A stretch of 24,475 nt of DNA. Source: a virus. Position numbers and translations under genes: made by a program. Positions within the stretch are counted from its first letter, which is position 1; every line of letters begins with the position of its first letter. The notes beneath the pieces are model-generated. The model did not search any database. It was given only the letters and a program-made list of their open reading frames with translations, and was not told where the DNA came from. Where the stretch lies: positions 1 to 24,475 of IMG/VR virus record IMGVR_UViG_3300025132_000284; one strand, given 5' to 3'. Below, piece after piece: positions 5,656 through 24,475 of the stretch.

Positions 5656-7518
5656 TTATTCTACTTTAAATTTAAATTCTTCCGGCTGCTCAATATATTG
5701 TGAATTTAAGTAATATACAAATTTTATCCCGTAAACGTTGTCTGGCTCTAGTAGCGACATATCTAAGTCAAAATAACTCCCACTTGCATCAAACGACAGT
5801 CTAGTTTGATTATCACTACCTGTGCCGTAACTTATTACATCTAAATTATCATTTATTCTGTAAATTTTGTAATACGAATCCTCAACTAAATCAATTGGAG
5901 CTTTGTTTGACGATACCGTATAAATAGTTGGGCTCCAATCTTTTTTTCTCGTGTATAGTCGGAATCTTGCCGCTTTATTTTGACTTGAATATGAAGGTTT
6001 TAGATTAGTAATTGTGCTTACAAATTGTTGATTCGGGTTGGTCGCCTGGCCAGGCCAAAGTTGAGTTAAACTTTTGGGCTCAATCGATCCGGTGAAATAT
6101 TCAGAAGAACCAAAATGCCACACATCATATACTTTATTTAAACTAGTAGAACCAGTGAAAGCAAAAGATGCAGAATATATTCCCGTAGAGACGTACCCTC
6201 CCGTTACGTTAAAATCGCCATTTGTGACGACCCCGCCGCCCGGAAGCTTGGAGAGGGCCAATTTTGAGCCCGAAGGGGCTGTATTATCTGATGAGCCGGA
6301 ATATAAACTTACCAAAATAGCACCATTACCAATGCTGGGTATGTTTTTTAGTTGCCCGCGCACATAATTATAAAGATAAATGGTGTTTAAGTTATCTGCC
6401 ACAGGAGCCAGAGAACTGCTGTAATAAAAATTACCCCTATCATCTTTTGTCGAAGAATCCCACCTTGCTTCTATCGCCGGCCTATAAAAGAAATTTTCAG
6501 AACCCCTTGCAAAAAACTTTTTAATGTAATAGGATGTCTCTTGGGACTCTTCCGCGGAAGACAACTTTACGCCTACACCATAATTAGATTTGCTGCCTAA
6601 TACATTTCCAGCGCTATTGACCCACTGCTCTACTAATTCAGTAATATCCATTTCTAGATCTTCAAATCCAGTGCTAAAAGACGCAGTAAACGAGGAGGAA
6701 GTATCCGTGTAATAGTCTCCACCTTGGGTGACCCAAGATGTGTAATCGGCACCAACAGTGGTCGTTGAGAGGCCAATAAATTTTGCATTTCCAGTTGGGG
6801 CTGTTATGGCCCCTGCTGTGACATTTGCAACGCCGACAGCTGCAACGCTACGGACTGCGGTAAACGCTGACTGGGCGCCTACAACATTTTTAAATGTCTC
6901 AGCGTAATCAGAGGCTGCGGCGCCTGCCGAGATGTCTACTTCAACTTCAGTCCCATCTAGGTTGGGCGCCGTTTCTGCTGCAGACTTGAACCAAAAATTA
7001 TACCTATTGCTGCTTGCATCGTAAAGGCTTATATATTTTCCACCATAATCGCCTTTTGTGTTAGATGCAAAAGAGGCTGTTAAGATGTTTGAAATTTTAG
7101 TGTCATTCCGATAAAGCCAATTAGATGGCTCCTCATCAGAATAATTTTCCATATCCAACCCATTGCCTTCTTGCCAGGATTGAGATATTGCAGATACAAC
7201 TAAATTGAAGTCTTTTGGTGTTGTTTGGGAGTGTCTTGCATTATACATTCTCAAATAAAATGACACACTACCAGAGGCCGGTATATCGCCCTGAGTTCTG
7301 TCGTAGGATATATAATCAACTGCATTTCCAACCACAGGAAACTTAATTAACGTTCTGGCCTTTTCAGCCGAAGAGGATGAAGCTTGGCCGTATATTGAAA
7401 ATGTCTCCAATATGTCAGATTGCCCCATATTTCCGCTAACACCCCTGGTGGTTAAATTAGCCTTGTATGCGTTGGTGATTGTATTGTCTGCATCTGCGAT
7501 GTATCTTTTAATAGCCAT
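5656..7518 (-). CDS. DNRLRE-like tail/baseplate structural protein (620 aa)
   Basis: The protein opens with a pattern seen in DNRLRE/CBM96-like beta-sandwich modules: an early ADADNTIT strand, an RTLIKFPV strand near residue 55, SVSFYLRMYNARH near 85, and SWQEGNG near 110. A later segment (DLEMDITELVEQWVN, about residues 283-298) followed by YGVGVKLSS also fits this family, in which a helical element leads to a surface-binding sheet. The C-terminal 270 residues are beta-rich and full of Ser, Gly and Tyr, like fibre or neck modules, with no motif I recognise. No signal peptide or membrane segment is visible. Its ATG overlaps the gp6-like stop by one base (TAATG), suggesting translational coupling with the wedge gene. 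Its place between gp6 and the LamG giant suggests a baseplate-attached adhesin or fibre connector. The exact T4 counterpart is unknown. Confidence 0.8.
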   Translation of the reverse strand: MAIKRYIADADNTITNAYKANLTTRGVSGNMGQSDILETFSIYGQASSSSAEKARTLIKFPVVGNAVDYISYDRTQGDIPASGSVSFYLRMYNARHSQTTPKDFNLVVSAISQSWQEGNGLDMENYSDEEPSNWLYRNDTKISNILTASFASNTKGDYGGKYISLYDASSNRYNFWFKSAAETAPNLDGTEVEVDISAGAAASDYAETFKNVVGAQSAFTAVRSVAAVGVANVTAGAITAPTGNAKFIGLSTTTVGADYTSWVTQGGDYYTDTSSSFTASFSTGFEDLEMDITELVEQWVNSAGNVLGSKSNYGVGVKLSSAEESQETSYYIKKFFARGSENFFYRPAIEARWDSSTKDDRGNFYYSSSLAPVADNLNTIYLYNYVRGQLKNIPSIGNGAILVSLYSGSSDNTAPSGSKLALSKLPGGGVVTNGDFNVTGGYVSTGIYSASFAFTGSTSLNKVYDVWHFGSSEYFTGSIEPKSLTQLWPGQATNPNQQFVSTITNLKPSYSSQNKAARFRLYTRKKDWSPTIYTVSSNKAPIDLVEDSYYKIYRINDNLDVISYGTGSDNQTRLSFDASGSYFDLDMSLLEPDNVYGIKFVYYLNSQYIEQPEEFKFKVE

Positions 7519-9314
7519 TATTGTACGGTGCCTCCAATATCTAGATCTGGATATTTTATTTCAAAAATAGTATCTGTGGGTGGAAATAAAAATCTACCAT
7601 CGGGGGAGAGTGCTTCCTCTATAGATATTGGAGCATCAGCGTATCCATCACCAGTCATAACTTTCATTTTTACATCAACAACGTCCATTAAATCAGGTAT
7701 AGATTTTAATATTTGATATATGTCAGTGATAATGATTGGTTCTCCGATATAAAATGTCTTTCTGAATGCGTTTCTTAATGTTTGGTTGGCCTCGACCAAA
7801 ATATCATACTTGTTTGTACCAGGGAAAGGGACAATTTTAAATTCTATCCCAACATTACAAATATTTGCATCTAAAATATCAATTGTGTCGTTGACCATTT
7901 TATATTGATTTATCCAAGTTTTTAAGTTATTTTTAAGAGTAGTGTTCGCATTTGTCAAATCCCCATCAGAATCTTCAGCTAAAACATAATAATTTATATT
8001 TCGCTGATTATATGAATCTGAGTCTAGCTCCAGGGCCGCTCTTTTAATTTTGCCATATTTTGCCGGCATGTTATAAGCAAGTGCAATATAATCTTGCTTT
8101 GTGACAGCTCTGTTTTGCGAGGCAAAGTTAGACATGGCCCTCTCTTTTATTTCCTCAACACTGATCAGGCTTACGTCACCAGTGATCGGCTCTTCGTTTA
8201 AGACGGCCAAACTTCCTTGTACCTCTGAAATTATAGCCTCGCTCAGAAGCCCTTGTTGCTCGGCTGGAAAAGAAAAATCAGCAGTACCAATTCTTGTCAC
8301 TGTCTGTGCTCCAGTGTTGACGTTTTCATTTGTATTAATTCTGTATATTATAGTTAACGTAGTGTTTGACGGAGAAACTCCCAGCTTGTCTGTTTTGTTC
8401 AATATTGAAGGGTCGAAAGATGTGTCTGTGACATAATTTTTCCCATGCAACTCCAACACCACTTCTGAGGGATCTTTAACCTCTACCGGAGTCTCTTCGC
8501 TACCTTGGCCAAATTGCAAAAACAAGCCATCTGGTGTTGTGTCCACTCGGAAGCGCCTAGAGACAGAAACAGGCTTCAAAATAAAAGGCACTGTACTGTG
8601 GTCGGAATTTCTATTTATAACTGGTACAAAAAGTACATCTTGGCTTAGATAATCAACTTCAAAATATTGATTTCCATTATCATCAAAAACTGAAACTATT
8701 TCACTTATATTTTCACCAAGAAGAGTAACTCTTTGAAATGGAGTGTATTCTCCGATTTGTACTTCTTGAACTGCTAACTCTCCCGACATGATTTGGCCGG
8801 CGGCCCTAATTGCATACGATAAGGGGTTGCCAGTGGTTGCATCCTGATCGGCCACCACAACTGGGTTTTCAGATAAAGAAAAGTCTATATCTTCCAACAA
8901 AGAAAATATGGTATCATTTGTAGAAATAAAAGTCGACCCTTTTTTTAAGACGGGCATGTACCTTTCATCAGGAGCCTGAGATGCTGCTTCGGCCGGCACA
9001 GTAATATAGAAGTTGCACATACCGAAAGAGGAAGGGTAGGGCTTGTACTTGTATCCCATCTGCCGACTTAACTTAATTACATTGTCAAATTCAATTGCAG
9101 TATCTAAAAAAGACTCATTTGCTTGATAATCTGTATAAAAAGAGAGCATATCCCCAACATAGGCAACTGTATCTAACATCATAGAGCCAAAAGAGGCATC
9201 AGTGAAGTCCCTGTAATTGTCGGGATAGTATCGCTTAACGTAGGACTCAAGCTCGTTTCGAATCGAGGTGAAGTCTCTATTTGTGTAGTTTATTGCTGGT
9301 TTTTTCGGTGCCAT
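7518..9314 (-). CDS. 6: gp6-like baseplate wedge protein (baseplate J family)
   Basis: This 598-aa protein matches the pattern of T4-like gp6 / P2 J wedge proteins, which form the inner baseplate ring and link the wedges together. The N-terminus has the typical block NYTNRDFTSIRNELE followed by DASFGSMMLDTVAYVGDMLSF (about residues 10-60). This is the conserved region where the protein folds into the core bundle with gp25 and gp7. The middle is beta-rich. A later GDVSLISVEEIKERA...QNRAVTKQDY segment (about residues 380-408) and the C-terminal GEPIIITDIYQILKSIPDLMDV block are also typical of the J family. Length is close to T4 gp6 (about 660 aa). An AAAGGA-like ribosome site lies 12 bases before the ATG. 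It lies 32 bases after gp25, and the gp25-gp6 order matches W-J in simpler contractile tails. Confidence 0.9.
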   Translation of the reverse strand: MAPKKPAINYTNRDFTSIRNELESYVKRYYPDNYRDFTDASFGSMMLDTVAYVGDMLSFYTDYQANESFLDTAIEFDNVIKLSRQMGYKYKPYPSSFGMCNFYITVPAEAASQAPDERYMPVLKKGSTFISTNDTIFSLLEDIDFSLSENPVVVADQDATTGNPLSYAIRAAGQIMSGELAVQEVQIGEYTPFQRVTLLGENISEIVSVFDDNGNQYFEVDYLSQDVLFVPVINRNSDHSTVPFILKPVSVSRRFRVDTTPDGLFLQFGQGSEETPVEVKDPSEVVLELHGKNYVTDTSFDPSILNKTDKLGVSPSNTTLTIIYRINTNENVNTGAQTVTRIGTADFSFPAEQQGLLSEAIISEVQGSLAVLNEEPITGDVSLISVEEIKERAMSNFASQNRAVTKQDYIALAYNMPAKYGKIKRAALELDSDSYNQRNINYYVLAEDSDGDLTNANTTLKNNLKTWINQYKMVNDTIDILDANICNVGIEFKIVPFPGTNKYDILVEANQTLRNAFRKTFYIGEPIIITDIYQILKSIPDLMDVVDVKMKVMTGDGYADAPISIEEALSPDGRFLFPPTDTIFEIKYPDLDIGGTVQ

Positions 9315-9346: not shown

Positions 9347-9742
9347 TTAAGCTTTAAAAGTAATAGCTAAAGTGTCATCAAATCCCACGCTTGGTATTGT
9401 ATATACAATTTCAACGCCTATAGAGTTTGTTGGTGCGGTTTCTCCTGGTGCGGCATCAATATTAGTCATCGATATTCCTATGATTTTAACAAATGGAACA
9501 TACTTTTTTACTTGCTCCATGATTTTGCTTCTTAGAGATGTGTGAGTTACAACCTCCGATTCAAAAAGGTAATTTCTTGCTCCAACACCGAATTCCGGAT
9601 CCATAATCCTTTCTCCTGGCGATGTTAGGACCACCATTTTGATATTCTGCCTAGCAACTTCTCCAATGGTTTTATTTAACTTATAATATCCATCGGTAGG
9701 GTCATAAAGCAGTGGTAATTTTGGAGAATAGCCGACTCCCAT
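9347..9742 (-). CDS. 25: gp25-like baseplate wedge protein (GPW/gp25 family)
   Basis: At 131 aa the protein is almost exactly the length of T4 gp25. It carries the family hallmark GERIMDPEFGVGARNYLFE at residues 43-61, followed by the amphipathic helix (SLRSKIMEQVKKYVP) and a C-terminal beta pair (IGVEIVYTIP). In the family this protein joins the inner baseplate core bundle and nucleates sheath assembly. The ATG is preceded by a strong GGAGGAG site, and a TATAAATA late-promoter sequence lies about 50 bases upstream. It is therefore likely the first gene of a separately promoted late unit with gp6, the 620-aa protein and the LamG giant. Confidence 0.92.
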   Translation of the reverse strand: MGVGYSPKLPLLYDPTDGYYKLNKTIGEVARQNIKMVVLTSPGERIMDPEFGVGARNYLFESEVVTHTSLRSKIMEQVKKYVPFVKIIGISMTNIDAAPGETAPTNSIGVEIVYTIPSVGFDDTLAITFKA

Positions 9743-9819: not shown

Positions 9820-12800
9820 TTAGTTGTTTTCTGGAGTTTTATCCTCGCACTCACCTTCTGGGGCTGGCAAGCTCTCTTTATCTTTATCTGGCTCTTGTGC
9901 CATAAGCTTTGCTATGATGCCCACAGGGGTGAGTGGGCCAGGAAAGAACCATGGTGTTTTCCATGTTGGGTCTATTGTGTTGGCTGCTGCCTGAATAACT
10001 AACTCGAAGAACATCTTGGCTATTTCATTTGGTGCTGGTGACGATATGCTCAGCTTTTCCTCTTGTGTTTCCGGCTCTGGTGTCACGTATGAGTAATCGT
10101 CCTCAATAGCCTTTAAAGACTCAACAATAAAAGAGCCGACAAAGCCCTTGGTGGAGCTAAATAAATTTTCAAGCTCAGGGTATGAAGCAAGCATTCCATA
10201 TCGATATATCATGGCTGTTGTAAATGATGTTTGTTTGATCGGCAGCACTTCGTTAAGCAAATCAGAATTTTTTAGATTATCCATCAACTTGTTTTGCATT
10301 TTGTAAATAATTTCTTCGCGCATTGGATTAGGCTTTGTTTCTGGATTTGCTTCTAGGCGGCTATGTGGGGCCAACATTGTGTTTAAAAGTTTGCAAGTCG
10401 CCCACAAGGTGGGTCGCACAGGGTCGTCTTTTGTCGAAGCATCCATATAATATTGTTGAGGCTTTAAACCATCGGCCATTAGTGACTCATCCATAGAAAG
10501 AGGGCAAAACAAATTGTTATATAAGTTGGCGTGGGTGTCCATAGCGGAGCCGCGGGTGTAATTGTATTGAACCTGATTGGCGGCCAATCCAAGTTCTGAA
10601 ATTTTAGACATTATCAAGCTCCATGGGTTTTCTTCGAATGGCGCTTTTGCGGAATCGCTAAACGTAAAGTGCGGCGCAGAAACACCAAAGGTTGGTGGGG
10701 ATCCCGGTGGGTGCATTTTCTCATGCACCTGCTCCCAGTAATCTCTGAGATCGTATTCTTCAAATTCAATTGGCAGGCAAAGCCAATTTGTAGCAGTTGC
10801 AGAATCACCATCAGTCAATAAGAAAGTTTTGTCTTGAATATAATCCTTATCAATTTTTGCCTCAAGAGTGACATCTCTTAGTTCAGATATAATGTTCTCC
10901 ATATAGCTAGAATCTACACCTTCGCCCTTATAGGGTACAATTAGGTTTAATCTCATGCCCATCGATATATCAAACCAGTGATCAAAGGGTGCTTCCACTA
11001 CAATTCTTTTCAACCACTCACACATGCCGATCAAATTAAGTCCATTCTTTTCATAAAATTCATTAATTTTTCCCATACCACCCAACCCGTCCAAGGTGCC
11101 GGCAAATTCATCAAAACCATGACGTATCATAAATTCAGCAATTTTTTCAAAAAACACCCTTTGAAATGGTAGTGGTGAAATATTCTCATTGTTTTCTTTT
11201 AGCGTCTCGTTCCATTTGGTGTTGAACTCCGGGCCGTCCGGTTCGGACAACACATCGTCCATGAGAGCTTTATTTGCACCTGGATTGACTTCTTTTGCAG
11301 CAGAAAAAATATCAATAAATGAAAAATTCCAATTTTTAAACGTTTGATATGCCGTTTCAGAAAAATTGTGATATCCTATTGAATCTAGGCCCACAACCCC
11401 CCTATTGCGAAAATTAAGCTGAGACGGGAGGGGTATGCCGGCCGGATATTGTTGCCAATGATAGAAAGCATTATAAAATGATTTATCACCATAAGCAGAT
11501 GTTTCCTTCCCCTTGCCTACAATCGAATCGGACGGCGCAGGAAAATAAGAACTAACAGTGCTTTGAAAAATTGATCTTAAATTATGAAAAGAGCCGTCCG
11601 GTCCAGCGACTCCGTGCCCAAATTCGTGTTTCCAGGGGCGCCCATCCTTATCAACCGGGGAAAAGAAAGTTAAAAAGAAATCCCAAAAAGTAGAAAGCTC
11701 TTCATCACCATTGACAAAAAGCAATTTTCCATGCTCTTCGTACTCTTTTTCAATCTTGCCAATGATTTTTCTTATAAAATTGTGAATTGTTCTGATTACT
11801 GGATAGTGTTTTCTATAATTAAACTGCCCATATGGTCGACTTTCCGTCGATGGGATTATATCTTTATACAAAGAATTGCCACCGAGTTCAGTAAAGAAAG
11901 TTGCATCGATGGGATCTCCATCTTCAACGGGCGGTGGCCAACCCTTCAGCGCATCAAGCCCAAACCAATCAACCTTCTCTGGGACTTCACCCAACTGGGT
12001 ACCATCGTTAGCCACTCCTCCATATGCATTTACATCTTTAATGTTTCTAAATATTGCAGTTTCCCATAAAGAAAAGGCTTGCTTAAATCTTTTCCAAAAA
12101 TCTTGATAATAAACATCCGCAGCTTCAAGGCTGGTTGGCGGCTCGCTAGCTGTAGTTAGTTTAGACCTCATCCTTACGTAGGGCTCAAAAAATAAGCCAC
12201 CCTCCCTCTTGGATGGAAAAGGCTTAGGTGATTGACTATATACGGAGTAGTCCTCGTAGTTCACTAGAGACGGATCAGGCATCTGACGAAATAGGGGCAT
12301 CTTATTAACCTCCAGCTCTCCATTTTCTGTTTCCTGGCGAGTTGGGAATCTGCTCCCCTGCATTATTTCACGGTGGATAGAGTATTTGAAAAAGTCATTC
12401 TTAAAATAGTCCACATCATCCAGTTTTGTGAATTGATCTTTCCAAGCCGGATTTGCAAATTTACGGACTCGTTCATCCATCAATTTATCAACTTCAAGCG
12501 CAGTTTCAACAATAATCATGTCTAAGCTTTCTTCGCGCGTTTTAACTCTAGTCTGTTCCGCCTTTTGTGCTTTTGTTAGGGGGGAACCATCTTCGTTTGT
12601 CATTGAATCGACATCAACATCCGCAAGGCGCGCCCTGACAACTTTTTGTGAATAATCTAAAAGATTTTCATATCCACTTGAAAGCGAACTTTCTACTGAA
12701 GATCTAATCGCAGATTTTATAATCGACATATAAGCTTCATCTTCAATGATGTCAGAAATTTTTGCAAAAGAGAACATAAAGATATTCTTAAGATATTCCT

Positions 12801-15800
12801 CTGCAATACAAACTTTTATAAGCATCTTATATAGACCAAACATGTTCGCGATTTGGATCGCATCTGGAGTATCGAACATGCTAACCATGCATTCTAAACT
12901 TTTTCTAACCTCTTCCACGTCAGCTTTTGTTTTTTCTGGGTCTAACAGTGGTGTAGGGTTTGTTTCTAAGCATTTAGATTGTGCCTCTTCATTTGTGAGA
13001 GGTAGCGCATTAAAATTCTTTGCTTTAAAGAGATCTGTCTGAGAGGCGTTATCCCACACAGTTTCCAACATTAAGTTGGCTGCCAAGGGGAAAATGCCTT
13101 TAAAGATATTGTCAGCGATCTGAGTAGCCGCCATCATCGCGGCCACCACCGTACCCTTTGGTATATCGGGATTAAAAAGAAAATAATCAAAAAGTTCCTT
13201 CTGAAAATCGTCTAAATCGAATTTGTCAGCTTCCATTGCAATTTGCCCGGCAGGAGGATATTCATATTCCTTCACTCCACCATTATAAGATATGATTTTA
13301 ATTTGTGGTGAAGGAATGCTCATACCTTTGTGAACAATGTCAGTGCCAGAAAAATTAAAAACCATGTCCAAAGAATAGCTTGTTCCTGGTAAAACATACT
13401 CAAAAGAGCCTACTGCATTTTCTGGGTCATAAAAAATCAACTGCTCGTTTTGAGTGTTTGATGCGATAATATCAGAAATTAAACCCCGAAACTTCTTAGC
13501 AACTAATTTATTGTTTTCACCGTCTGTGTCTGCGTTATAACTCTCTTGAGAATTGTTTAACATACCAGTGACTGCCTTCATATATGCTAGTGAAGGATCA
13601 GCAGCTGTAGATTCGTTGCCGGCTGCAGACTTAATGCTGTTTAAAAGAGCAGTCATCATGTTAGGATTAAAGGTTTCTTTTATGAGTGGCTTATATGCTG
13701 CCAAGGTATTATTGAAACTGTCGTCAATTGCTTTGTAGGTTTTATCAGCTAGGCGCTCTTGCATAAAAAGCTGTGTTTCGTGAGTTTGGCTTGGCATTAA
13801 GGGTTTCATACCAATTTGATCTGGCGCACAAGGTCCGCAGAAAAGTGGCGGATAGAGGCTCTTCATCATATTTGGGTCAATAAATGGCAACATGCTGGTT
13901 GCGTCTTCGAGTGCCTGCTGTTGGTCCCCTTCTGCAATCGCTAAAATATCTTCAGGCCATATAGATTTTTCCAATTCATCGACGTTTATTGGGTCACAGA
14001 GCCCCACTAGCGCCTCTTGAAAAGCATTATATTCATCTATTGCGGCGTCATACACATCGCTATCAATAAGAGAGCCAAGGTCTAATAAGAGGGCCTGGGC
14101 TTGATCGGGCGAAATAAAGCCCGGAGGGAAAGGCAACACTGTGATGTCTCCAGTTGTAGGATCTTCTTTTTCATATGTTTGGTCTTTTTTATTAGGATCA
14201 TATCCAGTTTGCGCGGCAATGGCAGCAAGAGAAAGGCCGGGGAAGTTCACTTGAAGAGCCATGATTGTCCCCTCATCCATAAAGGCCAATGCAGCATCCT
14301 CATAACTTCCCTCAAAAGAATCATCTCCGCATTCTGTTGTAAAAAGCCTTTTTAGTTCACTAGGAGAAAATACATCTCCAAGCTTTTCAAATCCATCATA
14401 CAAAGTTTGAACATCCTGATTGAAGAAGTGCTTGGTCTTCAACTCCCCAAATTTATCCCAAAGCTCGTTATCTCCAGAATCTTTATATATGCTAGAATTT
14501 AATATCCAATCTCTTGGGCTGGTAAATCCAAATGGATCCCCCGTACCATTGCATAAGTCTTGAGTCAGGCCACCGTTAAATTGCTCTTTAACGTATTTTA
14601 AGACAACCATGGCAGTCGCATAGACTATGCTCATTGCCATGTCCTTGAGGCCCTTTGCAAAGGATTTCCTGAAGCTTTCTAGTTTGTCTGTGGATTTAAG
14701 ATATTTTTTGATTGGATCTACAAATCTATCAATTGCCAAAGTTCCATTTTGATCATTATCGTATAATTTATCTTTTGCTGCGGTTGTCATGCCATCAATG
14801 CTTTGATCAGTTAGTTCTTCCACATATTCTAGCATTTTTGTGATAGGGCCATATGAAGCTAGCACACAATCACATATTGCATCGCCGGCGACTTCTTCAG
14901 CCCAATCTAGCATTTCTTGATTAAAGTCTCCAGGAGATCTTCCCAATTTCTTTTGCATGTATGGGTCGGAACAATACAGTGGTATTAACTGAACCATGAT
15001 CTGAGTTTCAGTCCATGGCTCTGAAGGGTCTGGTGGGAATCTTTCAGGATATCTAGCACTGGCGATTTTATATACATCTCCAACGCGGCCCGTAATTTTT
15101 TCTTCTAGCTTTGCAATGGCCAAATCACCGTTTGGCACATTCCTTAAACAAGGATAAAGCTGTTGACGTATTTCTGATATGGGCACTGTCTTTAAGATTG
15201 TTTGGCACATGTGCCTTTTCATGGCGCTGTTTTTAGCACACTTGAAAATAAGAGCAGAGGCCATCTTGATTAATTCCGCTATAGGTATACGATTCAGCAA
15301 TTTATCAAAAAGCTCCGACATGGACTTAATTTCTCCAAACACAGCCTTTAATAAGTTTTCATCACCAGAATACATATTGGTGACATTCGATGTGCCGGCA
15401 ATTAAGTTCTTTACATCCGGAGACATTAAATTTGTAGGATCTTTTATATACTTTCCTGTAAATAAGAGATCTTTAAAAATGGGATTTTTTAACTGAAGTG
15501 GGTCAACTAAAGACTCTAATGTTGGTTTTGCCTCTCCATTGTAATTTGTTTCAGGCGTAGGATATACATACGTATTGATAAAATCAAGCCAAGATTGATG
15601 CATTGAAAACAGATCTGTGCTATAGTTTCCGCCCGATTTTAAGTATTTTCCATATCTCCTATTGATCTCAGGCAACATATGTAAGAAGTTATTAATTCTT
15701 GGTACCGAAAAAGGCCCAGAACCTCTAATTGAGTTTAAGCCTTCTTTTAAAATGTAGGGTGTAATATCGGCACCTTCCTCACACAAGCAATCCGCCACCT

Positions 15801-16914
15801 CACTAAAAGATACATATTGTAAAACATATTCTTCAGTGAACCCAAACTGAATTGCACCAAGGGGAGTATTCTCTTTTATGTCTTTTAGGCTTGGGAGGGA
15901 GTTTGCGCGGAAAAGGCCATTGATAACCCCATAAATTTCTTTTACAGAATTTGCTGAACATTTCGCATTAAAGCTAGTTTCGAAGCCCTCTTCTGCAAAT
16001 GCAATATTCATTTGGGCATCAAAGTGAAAAAGTATTTTTTGTAAATTTTTCAGATACTGATCGAAATCTTTAACTAAAACTAAAACTTCTCTACTGACCT
16101 TGGACATGTCTACTTTGTTGCTTTTTTGAGGAAGTGAATCAACCCAACCTCTGTCAAACATAATTTTAACCCACAAAGTCTGGTATTCTGGCCTTCGAGG
16201 GATAATGTGCCAAGCCTGTGCTGTAGGGACTTCTTTTTGGGCGCCAGTTGTAACATCTCGACCTCGATCAACTATTTTATTTTGCGGCATAAAACCAAAG
16301 TTGTGAGCTAAATCTACAATCTTGTCTTTTCGTATTTCTTTATCTAAATCTTTTTCCAATTTGCCCAAGGCCCATAGTTTACATTTATTTACAAACTCTG
16401 GATCGCCTAACAGGCCTCTTCCGCCGCCTTTTCCCTTGGGGGCTGGGTGTCCAACCTCTATCTTGCCAGAAGCGTCAACATAATCAGCCAAATTGGGGTT
16501 TTTGAGCATATTCTCGAATACAAGAGGTACTATGTAGTATTGTTTACGAGGGTCTGAAGAAAGGTGAGTTTTCTTTCTCTGCCACCAAGCCTGGGTATTT
16601 CCTATATTTTTTTGCTCATAATTTCTGTTTATTTCATCGCCATGACTGACGGAAGGCCCAATACCATAGCCCTTCTTGATTACACTTAATTTGTAAGCCC
16701 AACTGTAATTTTCATCCGGATCAAACATATCTGGATCGTTCATTTTACTTTGTATGATAGACTTAAATTCTTCTAACGTAGGCGAATAGCCGCTATGAAC
16801 TTTTTTTCCATTTTGAATAGAAAAAGTTTTTTCAACTGCGCCTTTCTCTGGTTCTTTGAGGAGGCGATCATATAATTTTTCTATCTGTGTGTCTTGTGTT
16901 GTCTTGCTAGCCAT
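9820..16914 (-). CDS. Giant 2364-aa protein of unknown fold, probable virion/baseplate component
   Basis: I do not recognise a family over this length. The protein is mixed alpha/beta, largely helical in the centre, with about 20 scattered cysteines including a CGPC near residue 1027, and no signal peptide. A few helices are hydrophobic (around SIVYATAMVVLKYV and VVAAMMAATQIADNIF) but none is a clear membrane anchor. A single HEFGH motif at residues 1763-1767 matches the HExxH zinc-protease signature, though the surrounding Pro/Gly-rich sequence is atypical. The C-terminus has TPWFFPGPLTPVGIIAKLM followed by an acidic, proline-rich tail. The protein is not coiled-coil and has many aromatic and cysteine residues, so it does not look like a tape measure. 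It lies between tail-tip and wedge genes, 25 bases after the 335-aa gene, so a baseplate or injected role is inferred. Confidence 0.85.
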   Translation of the reverse strand: MASKTTQDTQIEKLYDRLLKEPEKGAVEKTFSIQNGKKVHSGYSPTLEEFKSIIQSKMNDPDMFDPDENYSWAYKLSVIKKGYGIGPSVSHGDEINRNYEQKNIGNTQAWWQRKKTHLSSDPRKQYYIVPLVFENMLKNPNLADYVDASGKIEVGHPAPKGKGGGRGLLGDPEFVNKCKLWALGKLEKDLDKEIRKDKIVDLAHNFGFMPQNKIVDRGRDVTTGAQKEVPTAQAWHIIPRRPEYQTLWVKIMFDRGWVDSLPQKSNKVDMSKVSREVLVLVKDFDQYLKNLQKILFHFDAQMNIAFAEEGFETSFNAKCSANSVKEIYGVINGLFRANSLPSLKDIKENTPLGAIQFGFTEEYVLQYVSFSEVADCLCEEGADITPYILKEGLNSIRGSGPFSVPRINNFLHMLPEINRRYGKYLKSGGNYSTDLFSMHQSWLDFINTYVYPTPETNYNGEAKPTLESLVDPLQLKNPIFKDLLFTGKYIKDPTNLMSPDVKNLIAGTSNVTNMYSGDENLLKAVFGEIKSMSELFDKLLNRIPIAELIKMASALIFKCAKNSAMKRHMCQTILKTVPISEIRQQLYPCLRNVPNGDLAIAKLEEKITGRVGDVYKIASARYPERFPPDPSEPWTETQIMVQLIPLYCSDPYMQKKLGRSPGDFNQEMLDWAEEVAGDAICDCVLASYGPITKMLEYVEELTDQSIDGMTTAAKDKLYDNDQNGTLAIDRFVDPIKKYLKSTDKLESFRKSFAKGLKDMAMSIVYATAMVVLKYVKEQFNGGLTQDLCNGTGDPFGFTSPRDWILNSSIYKDSGDNELWDKFGELKTKHFFNQDVQTLYDGFEKLGDVFSPSELKRLFTTECGDDSFEGSYEDAALAFMDEGTIMALQVNFPGLSLAAIAAQTGYDPNKKDQTYEKEDPTTGDITVLPFPPGFISPDQAQALLLDLGSLIDSDVYDAAIDEYNAFQEALVGLCDPINVDELEKSIWPEDILAIAEGDQQQALEDATSMLPFIDPNMMKSLYPPLFCGPCAPDQIGMKPLMPSQTHETQLFMQERLADKTYKAIDDSFNNTLAAYKPLIKETFNPNMMTALLNSIKSAAGNESTAADPSLAYMKAVTGMLNNSQESYNADTDGENNKLVAKKFRGLISDIIASNTQNEQLIFYDPENAVGSFEYVLPGTSYSLDMVFNFSGTDIVHKGMSIPSPQIKIISYNGGVKEYEYPPAGQIAMEADKFDLDDFQKELFDYFLFNPDIPKGTVVAAMMAATQIADNIFKGIFPLAANLMLETVWDNASQTDLFKAKNFNALPLTNEEAQSKCLETNPTPLLDPEKTKADVEEVRKSLECMVSMFDTPDAIQIANMFGLYKMLIKVCIAEEYLKNIFMFSFAKISDIIEDEAYMSIIKSAIRSSVESSLSSGYENLLDYSQKVVRARLADVDVDSMTNEDGSPLTKAQKAEQTRVKTREESLDMIIVETALEVDKLMDERVRKFANPAWKDQFTKLDDVDYFKNDFFKYSIHREIMQGSRFPTRQETENGELEVNKMPLFRQMPDPSLVNYEDYSVYSQSPKPFPSKREGGLFFEPYVRMRSKLTTASEPPTSLEAADVYYQDFWKRFKQAFSLWETAIFRNIKDVNAYGGVANDGTQLGEVPEKVDWFGLDALKGWPPPVEDGDPIDATFFTELGGNSLYKDIIPSTESRPYGQFNYRKHYPVIRTIHNFIRKIIGKIEKEYEEHGKLLFVNGDEELSTFWDFFLTFFSPVDKDGRPWKHEFGHGVAGPDGSFHNLRSIFQSTVSSYFPAPSDSIVGKGKETSAYGDKSFYNAFYHWQQYPAGIPLPSQLNFRNRGVVGLDSIGYHNFSETAYQTFKNWNFSFIDIFSAAKEVNPGANKALMDDVLSEPDGPEFNTKWNETLKENNENISPLPFQRVFFEKIAEFMIRHGFDEFAGTLDGLGGMGKINEFYEKNGLNLIGMCEWLKRIVVEAPFDHWFDISMGMRLNLIVPYKGEGVDSSYMENIISELRDVTLEAKIDKDYIQDKTFLLTDGDSATATNWLCLPIEFEEYDLRDYWEQVHEKMHPPGSPPTFGVSAPHFTFSDSAKAPFEENPWSLIMSKISELGLAANQVQYNYTRGSAMDTHANLYNNLFCPLSMDESLMADGLKPQQYYMDASTKDDPVRPTLWATCKLLNTMLAPHSRLEANPETKPNPMREEIIYKMQNKLMDNLKNSDLLNEVLPIKQTSFTTAMIYRYGMLASYPELENLFSSTKGFVGSFIVESLKAIEDDYSYVTPEPETQEEKLSISSPAPNEIAKMFFELVIQAAANTIDPTWKTPWFFPGPLTPVGIIAKLMAQEPDKDKESLPAPEGECEDKTPENN

Positions 16915-16939: not shown

Positions 16940-17947
16940 TTAGGTTGTAAATACTTGTCCGCTATTAATATAATCATTGCTAAATTGTTCTAATCTTTGC
17001 ACTTTGACGCCGGCGCCTCTCATAGAATGTAACATCAAGCTCTTCTTACATTTAAGGGCCTTTGTAATCGCTGTAAATCCAGCCGTCAAACAATCAAAAG
17101 AAGGTAATGTTTCGCCGCCGGCTAGAGCTGTTGGATTTCCGCTTGCCAAAGTTCCAATAGCCATTGACGTAGGTGACGGGTGTTTGTGCTCCATAAGTGC
17201 AGCGTTGAAATTATGTTGAAACATTAAAAAATTATCAACAATGCTGCTAAGTTCATTGATGGTGTCAACAATATCATTTAATGCTTCTAGTAAATTTTCT
17301 CCCTTTGGGATTGGTTGTAGCTTTTTTTCATGCAGCTCAGATGCGGTACCTGCAATTAAATTAATGCGGCCCGGAGAGCTAATTGGTTTTCCAAAAGAAT
17401 TTTTAATATCTATTCCGCTGCATATCTTAATGCTTTCTCGACCAATAATTCGCACATGGTCAGCTTTTACGACTCCGGCCGACTTACCCAAAACGTTTCC
17501 TATGTTGCCATCAGGAACTGCAAACATATCATCTACGTCGCATTTAGCAGAAACATAAAACCTTGCAGCATCTCGTTTTGCGTTCGGGTTAACTGGCTCT
17601 TCAGGTATATCCCCTGCTGCAGTTCCATGAGAATTTAAACCAGCATATATGTCCACTGCAGAGGCACCAAATGCGCCCACACCACCATAGCCGGCGCCGT
17701 ATTGAAAAGGCTTGCGGGTAGTCGGATCTGTTTTTTCATTCATTCTATCAGGCCCAATTCGAATGCCTGAGCCGTATGATCCCTCTACATGATCCTCTCC
17801 TTTCGGGTATCTTTTTATTTGTGAAACTAAATGAGGATTTGGATCCCCATCTATGCCACTATAAAATATACCATCATCCCTGTCTAAATTTAAGCCTGTT
17901 TTGTCTAAAAGTAAATCTTTATTTCTAAGTGGTAAGTTTAAGTCCAT
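16940..17947 (-). CDS. Phage structural protein, tail-tip associated (335 aa)
   Basis: The first half is Gly/Pro-rich and ends in beta-type segments (SAVDIYAG, ARFYVSAKCDVDD). The centre holds VKADHVRIIGRESIKI (about residues 160-175) and GRINLIAG, then LQPIPKGENLLEALNDI (about 210-226). A helix follows, ending in QHNFNAALMEHKHPSP. This combination of ADxVRIIGREsIKI, QPxxKGENLxEaL and a terminal HxH recurs, as I remember it, in virion proteins of large T4-like phages, but the exact role is not known to me. The short beta repeats resemble spike or beta-helix tips, and the HKH (254-256) could bind a metal. It lies between the OB-fold/peptidase gene and the 2364-aa gene, so a tail-tip or hub accessory role is inferred. 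Confidence 0.8.
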   Translation of the reverse strand: MDLNLPLRNKDLLLDKTGLNLDRDDGIFYSGIDGDPNPHLVSQIKRYPKGEDHVEGSYGSGIRIGPDRMNEKTDPTTRKPFQYGAGYGGVGAFGASAVDIYAGLNSHGTAAGDIPEEPVNPNAKRDAARFYVSAKCDVDDMFAVPDGNIGNVLGKSAGVVKADHVRIIGRESIKICSGIDIKNSFGKPISSPGRINLIAGTASELHEKKLQPIPKGENLLEALNDIVDTINELSSIVDNFLMFQHNFNAALMEHKHPSPTSMAIGTLASGNPTALAGGETLPSFDCLTAGFTAITKALKCKKSLMLHSMRGAGVKVQRLEQFSNDYINSGQVFTT

Positions 17948-17994: not shown

Positions 17995-20900
17995 TTAGGT
18001 TTTAGACTCGCCAGGTTTCCACCCTTTTTTCGGTTTAGTTTTTGATAAATCATAACCACTTCCATCCGCCTTGACCCATGCCTGCCAAATTCGCGGCGAT
18101 TTTGAATGCGGACCAGTATAATCGCAATTCTTTTTCTTAAGATTTGCCAGTGCTCTTTTGAAGCCGGCGCGCGCTGTTTGGTTTTTCTTTGCGACCCTTA
18201 CGTGATAATGGTTTTGGTGATTTTTTGCCATTGGGAACATATTGTATATAGCTCTTCCTATGGCGCCTTTTAGGCCCTCATCTTCCAATTGTTTAAAAAT
18301 TTGTCTAAATGCTGGGTCGGGCTCTTTCATCCATATTTTAGGATTGTCATAATCTTGAGTTTGGATTTGTTTTATGCGGACCTTAAGCCACTTCCTAAAA
18401 GAAGACCCGGGCTTACCCCCCCCAGCTCCGTTCGGCTCCCCAAAAAGAATTTTGCTGTTTTTAAACTTGCCCCCCATTGCAAGAGTTAGCAAGCCCATAA
18501 CAATTGTCTTGTCATAGTCAACAACAAGACCATTATACTTTGCGGCTTTCTCGGGACTTTCAAAATGCTGAAGATGACCTCCTTTTGTTGTTGTTCCTCG
18601 GCCGCTGAGAACCCGGTAGTTGTTCTTTGCATTGGAGGCTTGTGTGGAATATTTATACCATGTCGGTAAATTTAAATCAAAATCAGCTCCCTCTCTATGG
18701 GAAACATGACCCCTAACCATGTCAATAGCATTTGCCCATTCTGGAGAAACATCATGTATGATCCATTGTATGCCACTTCTACCATCTTTCATAGTGGCAT
18801 ATGCGTAGCCATATTTACTAGGCTTCTCTGCTCTACCCCAAATTGGATTTTCTAAAACTTTATCGATCCACGTAGCAACCTGATTGTTGCCCCATTGATA
18901 GCCTTTATTCCAAGAACTTTGCGCTGTATAGTTTTTCTTCTTGACGTGTGCTTTTATATCAAGAAGCCCAAGTGGGTTTTTTCCACATTCGACGGTACCA
19001 GGGGGTACAAGTTTTGCATTTGTTGTTTTTTTACCCTTTGCACTATCTTTACATTGTTTCTCGCATGCCTTAAGCTGTCTTGGTTTGTTAGTTTTAGCTC
19101 TTTGGTTTTTCTTTTTTCCTTTCTCACACTTTACGTTAGGATCTTTTAGCCCGTCTTTGTCTGGTAGTTTTTCACCTTTATGGTTGTATGCATTTCCTTC
19201 CTCATCATACGCAACGGGAACTTTTGCTGGACTGACTGTAACCTTCTTTACCTTAAGTGGGAACTCGCCTTCTTTTATGCCGGGAGAAGCTTTTGCTAAA
19301 AGTGACTTCGTTTTGAAGTAACTATCGAGAGGCTTGGTAGCGCTGCCTCCTGTGTTTAAATTTAAATATATTCCCTCAAACTTAGTCTTTGCGCCGTTAA
19401 GGAGCGTAGTCTCTTTGCATCCATTAAACTTTTCGCCCCCATCGAATTTAGGAGGCCCGCAGCCTTCTTTTTTATCAAGCTTCGAAACACCCGAATCTGT
19501 AACAGTTTCCTTATCCGTACTTCTGCTAGTATAAATATGAAATTCAAAATCTTCCCCAGCTTTCCAACTGCCCTTATTAGCACCGTAAACCGTGCCAAGG
19601 ATTGAGTTGACACCACTCGCATAAGATGCGTTCAACATATCTATTCTTTTAAGCTTTGTGCTTCCAACTGTTGGGCTATTCATTTTTTTCATAAGACCAG
19701 CTAAAGAAGTATATCCTTGCTTAAAGGCCTTGATGTTTACAAATTGAGGATCTGCAGTTGCGCCGAGGCCTTTTTTGGAATCCTTTTCTTTTATTATTCC
19801 AAGCACTTCATTGTGAAAATTAACAAATGAGCTTTCACTATTACCAAAAGTAGCGTCTTCAATATTTGTTTTATCAGCAACGTTTAGCTGGGTTGTTACA
19901 TATATAATATTCCTTCCCTGCTTGTCGACCATTTCGTGAAGTTGATTTTGAATGGCCTTCCTAAAGCCATGCCCAACCCACAAAGTAGGCAAAGGGCCGT
20001 TCCCGCTCGCACCATGAAGAAAATATATCAACTCATAAGGCTTTGACAAATCTACCCCTTGCGGTGCAACAATTGCTGTTTTACCTTTGAGTGCTTTTGT
20101 TTCTGCTGAATTATAGAGCATTGTGCGCCCTTTGAAATCCTCAAATCGAGACTCATCAGATTTAACGATGTCTCCACTCTTATCTGCAACTTTTATAACT
20201 TTTCCAGGAGTTTTCCCCACTTGAGTTGCTGCCGCGGCAGTTGGGGTGTTCGGCTCCTCAAGCCACGAAACCCAATCAAAATTTACAGAAGATTCAACAC
20301 CTCTAAAAATAAAATTAACCCAGCGGCCGGAGAGTCTTAATGTTTTTGAGCTATTACCATTGACAAAGCTTTCTCCATTTTTTGTTTTCTCCTCTAAGGT
20401 TTGAGTAAACATATCCTCATCTTCGGGCTTGATATCGGGGCCGGCTGTTTCGCCTGATTTTTTATATTTTAAAGCATTGGCATAAAATATTTGCAACTCG
20501 TTCCTTGCGTATATTAATGGATTGTTTTCTTTCGCTGGTGGGACTCCATTCCACTTGGATGTCATCGCAGACGTCTGCCCTATGTAAGCAGCTACAGCTT
20601 TTTTAGTAATCGCTGGTGCGTCTTTTGATAAATGAAATTCAACTTCTACCTTGTTGGGGTCTACCGCAATTATAATATCCTTAATATCATTATCATGATG
20701 CTTGTTGGTATCAGTTGAGCTATAATCTCCATTCCATAGCTTGATACTTTTTAGATTTTTACCAAACTTTTTTAAAAGCTTCATTCTAGCTAAGTTGGAA
20801 ATCGCAATGGAGCCGCGGCGGTCACCAACAAGTGTTATGTGCTTAAGCATCTTTTTATCAACACTGAGCTTCTCACTTAATACTTTTTCTATATTACCAA

Positions 20901-22116
20901 TAAATTTAGAAATATTTCCATACACCCTTCTGTCGGTGGCGCTGTTTATTTCAGCAAACAATGGGTGCCGGTCAAACACATTTTTGCCGTCCCATCCCCA
21001 CACCATCTGTTGCCTGTCTCCATATCCAGTTAGGCTGTCGAGCTTACTATCTGCTCTAGGCTTGACTGTTCCATTATTTTCTTTGGACCATGGCATTTCT
21101 GCCATTACAAAAACTAAATTTCTGCGGGCATTGTCAAGTTGAGGGTTGGGCTTTGTCATTTGTGTTATTGTTTTTCCGATCTCATTCCACTCACTTGCAT
21201 CATTTGCAAATTTTCCAACATCATGAAAAAAATAAATAACTTCTAGATGATTTGTTGGCCGAACCCCCACGGGCATATATATTAATGTATTTCGGCCTTC
21301 GCCATCAATCATCTTCTCATTATCTTTTGGTCCGTTACCCTCTAACTTGCCAATCCAAACTATTCCCTCAAAATTGCTATTTTTTGCGGGGTCGACTAGA
21401 GGCCCTAGCCAGCTTGAAGCGCCGTCATCAATAAGTTTTTTTTCTGCGTGGCCTGCATCTGTATTTAAAGGCAATGCAGAATCAAGGGCATGAACCTTTT
21501 TGTTTTTACCTTTACAATCTCCGCTAGCCCCCTGGCCAGTGTAAGTTTTCCTACAAGCATCAATACAGTCTTTAAGTTCTTGTGCTATATATCCAGTATC
21601 TTTGGGGTCCAGGGGGCCTGCAAAGTACATTCTAGTGATTGCACCCTTATTTGCCAATTCGACCTTTACAAGGTCTCCTGGCTGGGCCCCTTGGCGTTGT
21701 ACTAGGGTGTCTATTGCTTGTATATCTGGAAAGGCGTCAATTGCCAGCTTATCGGCCGCGGTGAGATTGCCCGTAATCTTGCTCGGTTTTTTGAGCATAA
21801 AATGAAGCTCTGGTATGTAAACTTTGTATGTGTTAAGTCCATATCTCTTAGAACCGCCCCGGGGTTCTGCCAAGGCAATCGCGCCATCTTGTGCTGTACA
21901 ATCAAGGTCAGTGTATTTATTATTAACCTTTAAGAGTACCCCAATCAAAGTTCCAGAAGTCTTAAACTTGTTTGGTGAAAATACCTTGTCTTTAATTCGA
22001 TTGATGATCGACTGTGGAGTTTCCGAATCTGAATCGATACTCTCCTGATCAATATCATCAACATTAAAGTCATTAAGATATCCTGGGGGCAAGTCTAGTA
22101 CGAGCGGTTTTCCCAT
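17995..22116 (-). CDS. Tail-tip protein: OB fold, two hydrolase-like domains and MepA-type murein endopeptidase
   Basis: I place the start at the ATG at 22116 (1373 aa). GGAG lies 9 bases upstream and the preceding stop is one base away; a GTG five codons earlier is also possible. Residues about 52-170 resemble the gp5 OB fold (YKVYIPELH, QPGDLVKVELANKG, MYFAGPLD). Residues about 270-505 and 660-875 each look like an alpha/beta hydrolase: VIYFFHDVGK then LVGDRRGS, and LIYFLHGASGNG then KQGYTSLAG. The serine nucleophile position is Arg in the first and unclear in the second. After a Lys/Cys-rich linker (about 995-1045), residues 1050-1330 form a penicillin-insensitive murein endopeptidase of family M74. 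It has SHREGADFD (H1140, D1147) and NHQNHYHVR (H1300, H1303, H1305), exactly the MepA spacing. It likely digests peptidoglycan during DNA entry, replacing the gp5 lysozyme. The peptidase call is strong, the hydrolase calls moderate. Confidence 0.88.
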   Translation of the reverse strand: MGKPLVLDLPPGYLNDFNVDDIDQESIDSDSETPQSIINRIKDKVFSPNKFKTSGTLIGVLLKVNNKYTDLDCTAQDGAIALAEPRGGSKRYGLNTYKVYIPELHFMLKKPSKITGNLTAADKLAIDAFPDIQAIDTLVQRQGAQPGDLVKVELANKGAITRMYFAGPLDPKDTGYIAQELKDCIDACRKTYTGQGASGDCKGKNKKVHALDSALPLNTDAGHAEKKLIDDGASSWLGPLVDPAKNSNFEGIVWIGKLEGNGPKDNEKMIDGEGRNTLIYMPVGVRPTNHLEVIYFFHDVGKFANDASEWNEIGKTITQMTKPNPQLDNARRNLVFVMAEMPWSKENNGTVKPRADSKLDSLTGYGDRQQMVWGWDGKNVFDRHPLFAEINSATDRRVYGNISKFIGNIEKVLSEKLSVDKKMLKHITLVGDRRGSIAISNLARMKLLKKFGKNLKSIKLWNGDYSSTDTNKHHDNDIKDIIIAVDPNKVEVEFHLSKDAPAITKKAVAAYIGQTSAMTSKWNGVPPAKENNPLIYARNELQIFYANALKYKKSGETAGPDIKPEDEDMFTQTLEEKTKNGESFVNGNSSKTLRLSGRWVNFIFRGVESSVNFDWVSWLEEPNTPTAAAATQVGKTPGKVIKVADKSGDIVKSDESRFEDFKGRTMLYNSAETKALKGKTAIVAPQGVDLSKPYELIYFLHGASGNGPLPTLWVGHGFRKAIQNQLHEMVDKQGRNIIYVTTQLNVADKTNIEDATFGNSESSFVNFHNEVLGIIKEKDSKKGLGATADPQFVNIKAFKQGYTSLAGLMKKMNSPTVGSTKLKRIDMLNASYASGVNSILGTVYGANKGSWKAGEDFEFHIYTSRSTDKETVTDSGVSKLDKKEGCGPPKFDGGEKFNGCKETTLLNGAKTKFEGIYLNLNTGGSATKPLDSYFKTKSLLAKASPGIKEGEFPLKVKKVTVSPAKVPVAYDEEGNAYNHKGEKLPDKDGLKDPNVKCEKGKKKNQRAKTNKPRQLKACEKQCKDSAKGKKTTNAKLVPPGTVECGKNPLGLLDIKAHVKKKNYTAQSSWNKGYQWGNNQVATWIDKVLENPIWGRAEKPSKYGYAYATMKDGRSGIQWIIHDVSPEWANAIDMVRGHVSHREGADFDLNLPTWYKYSTQASNAKNNYRVLSGRGTTTKGGHLQHFESPEKAAKYNGLVVDYDKTIVMGLLTLAMGGKFKNSKILFGEPNGAGGGKPGSSFRKWLKVRIKQIQTQDYDNPKIWMKEPDPAFRQIFKQLEDEGLKGAIGRAIYNMFPMAKNHQNHYHVRVAKKNQTARAGFKRALANLKKKNCDYTGPHSKSPRIWQAWVKADGSGYDLSKTKPKKGWKPGESKT

Positions 22117-22117
22117 A

Positions 22118-22423
22118 CTACTTGTCTCCACCCTGAATCAAATCAAAAAGCTGCTCTTTGTCTTCATCGTTTAGTTCGATTGAGCCGTCTTGTCTTTTAT
22201 TTAAAATAGCAGTGATTTTGACAAGTTGCTCGTTCGAACGCTGGAGGGTTTCAACATATTTAGATGCGATAAGACCTAATTGCTTGTGATTTTCTAAATC
22301 CGACGCCTTCTTCATTTCCAAAAGAAGGTCAGTTAGTAACGTATTGGTTACAGCTCGATCGTTTCGAATATTGTTTATTGATTCTTCAATATAGTCATTA
22401 ATATCTTCTACTCTTCGTCCCAT
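22118..22423 (-). CDS. Small helical phage protein; possible small terminase subunit
   Basis: This 101-aa protein is almost wholly helical and charged. A first helix (VEDINDYIEESINNIRNDRAV) is followed by a central pair ending in YVETLQRSNEQLVKITAIL, then an acidic C-terminus (ELNDEDKEQLFDLIQ). The helical pattern, with a central stretch ending in an N-x-x-L-x-K-like motif, resembles T4-like gp16 small terminase proteins, which recognise DNA for packaging. The protein is shorter than T4 gp16 (164 aa) and I cannot align it with confidence. A late-transcription co-activator of gp33 type is an alternative given the adjacent sigma gene. It overlaps the sigma gene by 16 bases and its stop lies one base before the next ATG, so it is translationally coupled on both sides. 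Confidence 0.8.
   Translation of the reverse strand: MGRRVEDINDYIEESINNIRNDRAVTNTLLTDLLLEMKKASDLENHKQLGLIASKYVETLQRSNEQLVKITAILNKRQDGSIELNDEDKEQLFDLIQGGDK
22126..22129 (-). promoter_or_regulatory. Ribosome binding site that decides the tail-tip protein start
   Basis: GGAG on the minus strand lies 9 bases before the ATG at 22116. It overlaps the alternative upstream GTG (22131-22129), which has no comparable site, so the ATG is preferred. Confidence 0.6.
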
Positions 22424-23097
22424 TTCTTTTTAAAATCCCTATACTTAACTCTTAGCTTGTTCAAGGAACTTACGACTTGTTTAGTATTTAAGCCGGTGAT
22501 TTCCCGTATGTATAGGTAAATAGCTTTCTTATTAAAAATTTCTATATTTTCAGACTCTTCGAAAAGAATCTTGACCGCTTGAATAACTTTTTTATCGTTT
22601 GCTCTGACAGCTGCACCTTCCCACAAGACAACGTTATCCCTAAAGCGATACCAAAATTCTTTTTTGATCGCCTCCTGCATTGACGTATTATAAATGACCA
22701 ATGGGTGGCTGTTGTTGATATCATCCCCATCGTTAATACAATAGTCCTCAATAAGCACTTCTCGCCTATATCTCTGGCTTGTTTTCTTAACTTTGTGGAT
22801 GAACCAATTTTTTGTGATCACACTAAAGTAAGAAAAAGCTTTTGAACCTTTGTTTGGGTCATACTTATCTAATATTGTGATAAGCCAGTTTTTACAATCT
22901 TCTTTTAAATAATCCACATTTGGTAGTGTGGTAAATTTATAAGTGTAGACAATCTTATCAACCATCTCATCGAACGCAGGCCCTATTAAGGATGCATATA
23001 ATTCATTTCTTATTTTAGGATCATTAGTGTTGCAATATTGTACAATTGCATCTTCGTGTACTTTTGTGAAGTACATGTTTTTTCTTTTACGGGCCAT
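22408..23097 (-). CDS. 55: gp55-like late-transcription sigma factor
   Basis: The 229-aa protein resembles the minimal sigma factors of T4-like phages, which direct host RNA polymerase to TATAAATA late promoters. Residues about 70-108 (WLITILDKYDPNKGSKAFSY, then FSVITKNWFIHKVKK) match sigma region 2 in layout: an FDP/YDP turn, an aromatic Y-F core and a basic helix contacting the -10 element. A C-terminal helix-turn-helix-like segment (IYLYIREITGLNTKQVVSSL, about residues 193-212) is typical of the marine T4-like branch. The C-terminus ends in KKKWDEE and shows no clear SLDDFL-type clamp-binding tail like that of T4 gp55. A small ECF-like sigma is the only alternative. It follows the membrane-protein gene by three bases and overlaps the next gene by 16. 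A matching late promoter occurs upstream of gp25. Confidence 0.75.
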   Translation of the reverse strand: MARKRKNMYFTKVHEDAIVQYCNTNDPKIRNELYASLIGPAFDEMVDKIVYTYKFTTLPNVDYLKEDCKNWLITILDKYDPNKGSKAFSYFSVITKNWFIHKVKKTSQRYRREVLIEDYCINDGDDINNSHPLVIYNTSMQEAIKKEFWYRFRDNVVLWEGAAVRANDKKVIQAVKILFEESENIEIFNKKAIYLYIREITGLNTKQVVSSLNKLRVKYRDFKKKWDEE

Positions 23098-23962: not shown

Positions 23963-24475
23963 TTAATACTCTGTCTCTAGAGAGTTGGAATTTCCAGATC
24001 TATACTTTTGACCCTCAATCTTATAGATATCGGGGGGCACATTTTTAAATTTATCGGAGTGATATTCTTCATAAAAATTGCCGCACTCTGAGGGCGTATA
24101 TGTAAAAAATACTATAGTTCTAGATAAGTTTGAATTGTTTCCATAGGATGCATGTGGAACATAACTATCAAACAATATGACATCTCCAGCATTCGTTGGG
24201 CACGCCTCTAAGTATATGTTTTCATTAAGATCTTGAAAGTTTTCTGTCAACATGTGGCTTGTCTTTTTACCAAAAAATATACAACCATTTTCCTCGTTAG
24301 TGTCACAAAGCGGAATAGCAACTGAGACATGTCGATTACAATAATTACCCCAACTAGCAGCTATATCTTGGTGTGGCAAAAAGCCTTCCCCGCCGGGATA
24401 TTTAAAGTTAATTTTATCTTTAAACAGAACAGGAGTATCGCGCAACTTTTCTTGAACGAGAGATAAAAGTTTTGC
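23963..24475 (-). CDS. PhyH-type 2-oxoglutarate/Fe(II) dioxygenase, N-terminus beyond window
   Basis: The 171 visible residues are the C-terminal part of a phytanoyl-CoA-dioxygenase-like enzyme. The iron site is present: H35 and D37 in LPHQD, and the distal histidine in DSYVPHAS at residue 108. The 2-oxoglutarate-binding arginine is probably R119 in NLSRTIVFF. The segment before the iron site (VLFKDKINFKYPGGEGFLPHQD) and the NGCIFFGKKTSH stretch are typical of PhyH proteins that hydroxylate small molecules. A TTG at 24445 could be taken as a start, but the frame continues upstream with PhyH-like sequence to the window edge, so the gene is cut there. Phage PhyH genes are common in marine viruses; the substrate cannot be told from sequence. 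Confidence 0.85.
   Translation of the reverse strand, partial: AKLLSLVQEKLRDTPVLFKDKINFKYPGGEGFLPHQDIAASWGNYCNRHVSVAIPLCDTNEENGCIFFGKKTSHMLTENFQDLNENIYLEACPTNAGDVILFDSYVPHASYGNNSNLSRTIVFFTYTPSECGNFYEEYHSDKFKNVPPDIYKIEGQKYRSGNSNSLETEY

Follow-up and report, generated by a model that had tools for sequence, protein, structure and literature searches.

Two homologous predicted hydrolase domains lacking the catalytic serine precede an M74-like peptidase domain in a probable phage tail-tip protein

Analysis of the virus record IMGVR_UViG_3300025132_000284 of IMG/VR, taken over its whole length (positions 1 to 24,475; 24,475 nucleotides, hereafter the window), revealed a long gene for a putative tail-tip or baseplate hub protein, two central domains of which are predicted alpha/beta-hydrolases that have lost catalytic residues. 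All window coordinates given below refer to the minus strand. The gene is a single open reading frame (ORF; 17995..22131) of 1378 amino acid residues counted from the GTG at 22131, which is the numbering used throughout. The true start is probably the ATG at 22116, giving 1373 residues, since the GTG overlaps the last bases of the preceding gene and M6 is invariant among the relatives. The ORF comprises an N-terminal domain (residues 1-225; 21457..22131), conserved in all hub relatives, a first hydrolase domain, D1 (residues 235-645; 20197..21429), a second, D2 (residues 645-960; 19252..20199), with residues 682-840 as the core matched by a hidden Markov model (HMM), and an M74-like LAS metallopeptidase domain (residues ~1040-1378; 17998..19014), assigned from PF03411 matches within the family and from alignment. 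More roughly, the limits of D1 and D2 are ~245-645 and ~665-930. An earlier note on this DNA had placed the protein at 18129-21309, an interval that lies inside the ORF but spans residues ~275-1335 only.

Single-sequence searches with the window protein against Pfam, PHROGs, the PDB (by sequence), INPHARED (tblastn) and, in a first scan, IMG/VR were empty, and relatives were reached through the neighbouring gp6-like baseplate wedge gene (7518..9314; phrog_219, E 1.2e-22), represented by 32 IMG/VR loci. When gp6-bearing contigs were searched with the hub protein, 12 of 20 contained a match. Nine aligned full-length proteins, including that of the window, share a common architecture, the others being 28-58% identical to the window protein, and an alignment-based scan added further relatives. 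Weak matches to Rpb5, lumazine synthase and CdiA_helical were put down to chance.

The relationship between D1 and D2 was assessed with an HMM for which standalone members of the family and hubs with a single hydrolase domain were used and two-domain members left out. This model matched the window protein twice, at residues 250-354 and 682-840 (independent E-values of 9.9e-17 and 6.2e-11, calculated for an assumed database size of 10,000), and also matched both domains in the two-domain relatives. Profile comparisons with hhalign linked the standalone hydrolases to D1 (probability 99.1%, E 8.8e-19) and D2 (92.3%, E 5.6e-7), and the two domains to each other (97.9%, E 4.4e-13). As negative controls, two pairs of unrelated profiles taken from these proteins gave probabilities of 0.3% and 1.7%. 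An AlphaFold model of residues 235-960 had a mean predicted local distance difference test score (pLDDT) of 75.1, mostly 80-93 in the core of D1, and a predicted TM-score of 0.56. Each half of the model runs strand-strand-strand-helix-strand-helix-strand-elbow-helix-strand, with the same elbow geometry. A fold search with the D1-D2 model ranked the feruloyl esterase 1gkk first (E 3.9e-7, probability 1.0, target-normalised TM-score 0.52), followed by many other esterases; a model of a standalone relative likewise matched esterases, with lower TM-scores. As the fold search reports no matching half, D2 is assigned from its HMM and profile matches and from its secondary structure. In BFVD the fold search returned mainly esterases of actinophages and giant viruses and no hub of comparable kind. 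Taken together, these sequence and model data identify D1 and D2 as homologous domains of predicted alpha/beta-hydrolase fold. The earlier note had proposed such a duplicated pair upstream of an M74-type peptidase, and the structure prediction and the comparison of the two halves bear it out; its suggestion of polyhydroxybutyrate-depolymerase or esterase families did not hold at the level of profiles, none of which exceeded the cut-off (best PF00756, E 0.046, in L089, and NF050058, E 0.012, in one member).

In the standalone model the nucleophile S197 lies just after strand 5 and two residues before the following helix, a position occupied by R438 in D1 and K804 in D2. The D1 elbow therefore reads G436-D-R438-R-G440 (20812..20826; alignment and model), and its oxyanion-strand motif is H303-D304 (21220..21225; alignment), where active relatives have HG; the histidine that would align with the standalone motif THxxIGD is absent, in a region where the alignment is weak for D1. 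In D2, the HG motif is retained (H706-G707; 20011..20016; alignment), the elbow reads A802-F-K804-Q-G806 (19714..19728; alignment and model), an asparagine replaces the relatives' aspartate in the LDSSY-type motif, and the histidine is absent. Neither domain of the window has a small-x-nucleophile-x-small elbow with serine, and on these grounds both are predicted to be unable to act as serine hydrolases. The elbow GDRRGS and the strand end HD had been read correctly for the first domain by the earlier note, as had HG (G707) for the second, but the second elbow had been placed at GYTSLAG, which begins with the final glycine of the actual elbow and is thus about four residues too far on.

Degeneracy of D1 extends to its entire clade: the nucleophile position in eleven D1 proteins is R, R, G, R, G, K, G, H, G, K and R, serine being found in none, and HG is altered to HD or HN. 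D2 has a different record. Although degenerate in the window, it is not dead family-wide, as four relatives (L033, L035, L036, L037) retain SFSGG, HG and the aspartate, and the first three of them also a nearby histidine; the D2 elbow of the remaining half of the family is HGG or similar. D2 may thus be active in sister phages, and the four retained serines suggest that the window phage lost its own recently.

A tree of the family resolved D1, D2 and the standalone proteins each as one clade, with matching splits of D1 and D2. The closest single-domain hub relative, L089, cut by the contig end, still has both HG and GHSAGG and branches as sister to the dead D1s as a whole (support 100/99), in agreement with the earlier proposal that the degenerate domains derive from catalytic ancestors. 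L082 combines D1 with an amidase (PF01510, E 8.6e-11) in place of D2; as this protein sits within the D1 clade, its missing D2 is most simply a loss. An occurrence of D2 outside two-domain hubs was considered and rejected, the D2-like matches having come from two-domain hubs only. Other hubs have a single hydrolase domain preceding a VanY-type M15 domain, some also with an amidase; the elbow is intact in L090 (AHSAGG), L094 (WSAGG) and L153 (GHSNGG) and lost in L091, L150 and L151. In more divergent phages the slot is filled by an M15-like ORF or an amidase without a hydrolase. Observed in the same slot were a hydrolase domain with an M15-like end (L063, 11875-15558), an Amidase_2 protein (L064, 9950-11359) and an M15-like protein (L065, 5634-6899).

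The C-terminal domain was recognized through its relatives: nine of the ten family members match PF03411, with E-values down to 1.3e-6; the match of the window protein itself is weak (E 0.075; 13.1 bits, below the cut-off of 25). The zinc-ligand motifs of this type, HxxxxxxD and HxH, are present in the window as H1145-x6-D1152, within H1142-VS-H1145-REGADF-D1152 (18676..18708), and H1308-x-H1310, within H1305-QN-H1308-Y-H1310 (18202..18219), both located by alignment. A second M74-like protein (L067, 2511-4412; 633 residues; PF03411 E 1.4e-4, just under the cut-off) occurs on a hub-bearing phage contig.

For the N-terminal domain, in contrast to the earlier note, which had read an OB fold there, the resemblance is a pattern seen by eye and was confirmed by no HMM or profile comparison: hhalign of the gp5 OB domain against the hub N-terminus gave probabilities of 0.2-0.4%, and Pfam and PHROGs returned no match. 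Profile searches of the PDB with the N-terminal, M74 and standalone hydrolase alignments all ended without a significant match.

Active members of the hydrolase family were found outside hubs as well. A viral scan retrieved 25 standalone ORFs of 191-336 residues, at loci that include some near-duplicate contigs, and 17 of the 25 have an M15_3 and/or GH25 endolysin homologue no more than ~5 kb away. The motifs HGLGGF, PEMPWSK, GHSAGGS and THxxIGD are invariant or near-invariant among the standalone proteins. The scan patterns contained the GHSAGG elbow, so that the 25 of 25 intact elbows are partly due to selection; an elbow-free pattern search and an archaeal HMM search, to which this bias does not apply, found elbows intact in all standalone and strong archaeal matches. 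Secreted-looking GHSAGG hydrolases adjoining M15_3 and GH25 endolysins were observed at L066 (5349-6326, minus strand), L069, L071-L075 and L124-L145; by position, and by analogy with LysB, they may represent an extra lysis protein of large marine phages. The 190-kb contig of the hub relative G014 also encodes a secreted-looking protein of 320 residues that has an intact GHSAGG elbow and matches D1.

Among genome collections, matches were confined to two archaeal metagenome-assembled genome (MAG) contigs, in which the hydrolase is fused to Peptidase_M15_4 (L095, E 6.2e-21) or to an M74 domain (L096, PF03411, E 6.5e-20). An HMM search of 279 genomes of their phylum (Woesearchaeota-related archaea) gave matches in 8, and further strong matches combine the hydrolase with SLT (L117), M23 (L120; in L118 under the cut-off), M74 (L119) or M15_4 (L122). 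Misbinned MAG contigs are unlikely as a full explanation, because several separate archaeal genomes carry such fusions. No family member had a convincing match in NCBIfam, Pfam or PHROGs, and the family is new in the sense of being absent from all three. Also new, and unforeseen in the earlier note, is the association of its active members, in archaea as well as among phage lysis genes, with enzymes that lyse peptidoglycan. Neither a hub of this kind nor the archaeal pairing was described in the open-access literature searched, which is weak evidence. Active domains beside or fused to M15, M74, M23, SLT, amidase and GH25 enzymes in phages and archaea point to an envelope-breaking step that has not been described.

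The position of the hub was read from gene order. The window carries a T4-type baseplate module, marked as such by a gp25-like wedge gene (9347..9742; PF04965, E 1.1e-8); besides this and the gp6-like gene, it includes a neighbour of 335 residues (16940..17947) and a 2364-residue protein without a family. The 335-residue neighbour is conserved in the relatives, matched no Pfam or PHROGs family and is a probable, unconfirmed spike-like protein. Baseplate genes alongside and neighbours shared with relatives are consistent with a hub. Several further genes were observed. The 2364-residue protein (9820-16914), between the spike-like gene and gp25, has no Pfam match, and in the divergent relatives L063-L065 its slot holds an ORF of 2767-3304 residues. 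Just upstream of the hub lies a gene for a late sigma factor-like protein (22408-23097; phrog_234, E 1.4e-5), a neighbour that relatives share. A large ORF running off the contig (3-5642) contains two Laminin_G_3 stretches (E 1.6e-27), and a gene with a PhyH (phytanoyl-CoA dioxygenase) domain (23963-24445; E 1.2e-15) is possibly a host-derived metabolic gene.

The reading that we slightly favour is that of a baseplate hub lysin in which the dead hydrolase pair binds or positions the envelope for the M74-like peptidase. The protein would be a hub or tail-tip lysin of a T4-type marine myophage; once the tail tip reached the periplasm, D1 and D2, as putative binding or positioning modules, would keep a wall or membrane component (an envelope polymer) close to the peptidase, whose cleavage of peptidoglycan cross-links would open a passage for the tail tube. 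The earlier note had suggested that the two domains may bind glycans or lipids, which is likewise a putative role. D1 and D2 would descend from an enzyme family whose members act jointly with peptidoglycan hydrolases on the envelope of bacteria, and the recurring partnership with wall-lytic enzymes is the main reason to place the ancestor's action there. Several observations weigh against this interpretation. The N-terminus is linked to gp5 by no profile, the structural model is of moderate confidence, the fold search names neither half, and the ligand and binding role of D1 and D2 are themselves what we infer. D2 is dispensable in L082. The active-looking peptidase of the earlier note has its motifs intact in the window but not in L037, L059, L060, L061 and L068, where one or more M74 ligands are lost; the peptidase may therefore not always be the point of the hub, and the whole enzymatic part appears, from these sequences, free to decay in some lineages.

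The main rival holds that the dead domains are purely structural, serving as spacers or trimer-forming parts of the hub without any ligand. It gains from the absence of D2 in L082 and from the lack of conservation among D1s of the oxyanion and elbow residues expected to line a pocket. Against it, D1 has invariant polar residues of its own in nine sequences at 29-60% identity to the window (N476, H479, D482, E498, H500), which resemble a ligand site more than a spacer, and we regard it as unlikely. The same residues, whose N, D, E and H columns are kept also in L082 and L089, could instead mean that D1 (or D2) is still an enzyme acting through other residues, such as this set, possibly with a metal. 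Their presence in L089 despite its intact GHSAGG indicates that they did not arise as a replacement for the elbow, and continued catalysis of this sort seems improbable. Equally doubtful is the view of the domains as relics decaying under relaxed selection, which would account for the independent loss of the nucleophile in many hubs, for the M74 losses and for D2 being the fastest-evolving domain between the window and L033, but which sits poorly with the uninterrupted frames and complete domains of about ten distinct phages and with the protein identity kept between these two (D1 61%, D2 51%, M74 56%) while degenerate third positions, 18-44% identical, are nearly randomised. This argues for a constraint on the dead domains about equal to that on the peptidase; the pairs on hand for a ratio of nonsynonymous to synonymous rates (dN/dS) are identical or saturated.

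Extending the envelope-positioning interpretation, a broader and more tentative proposal, short of an even chance in our estimation, is that the domain defines a new family of hydrolases that act on the envelope and have a bond specificity of their own, deployed in phage lysis, at the tail tip and in secreted multi-enzyme lysins of Woesearchaeota-related archaea. In the lineage of the window the domain would have undergone duplication and loss of activity and become an arm that binds the wall, D1 having gained a new ligand site.

Among known systems, archaeal proteins with peptidoglycan-lytic domains have been reported, namely hydrolases of archaea (PMC12352652) and GH23 enzymes of Woesearchaeota (PMC9723730), and term searches of the main texts of these two papers found a beta-hydrolase or esterase partner in neither. 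Among solved structures, D1-D2 and the standalone relative come closest in fold to feruloyl esterase domains (1gkk, 1jjf), acetyl esterase and S-formylglutathione hydrolase, but identity is only ~10-15%, the window lacks the triad and no Pfam or NCBIfam family was matched. The LysB mycolylarabinogalactan esterases of mycobacteriophages are alpha/beta-hydrolases of phage lysis cassettes that act on the envelope beside peptidoglycan lysins (PMC7022511, PMC5707550). Their likeness to the standalone relatives would be one of functional analogy only; they serve for other hosts, whereas in the present family the N-terminus is signal-like and one branch belongs to tail tips. To MepA and peptidase family M74 the C-terminal domain is linked by PF03411 matches in 9 of 10 members and by the HxxxxxxD and HxH motifs, differing in a window score under the curated cut-off, in its place within a probable virion protein and in the ligands lost by several relatives. 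The T4 gp5 hub with its tail lysozyme offers the nearest parallel in layout, both being tail-tip proteins in a module with gp25- and gp6-like genes, with an N-terminal domain followed by a peptidoglycan-cutting domain, the latter predicted in the window; here, however, the N-terminus has no detectable link to the gp5 OB domain, an M74-like peptidase stands in place of the lysozyme, and two hydrolase domains are inserted. The usual description of a tail-tip lysin is that of a hub carrying a single cell-wall enzyme, whereas in the window protein two large predicted pseudo-enzymes precede the enzyme.

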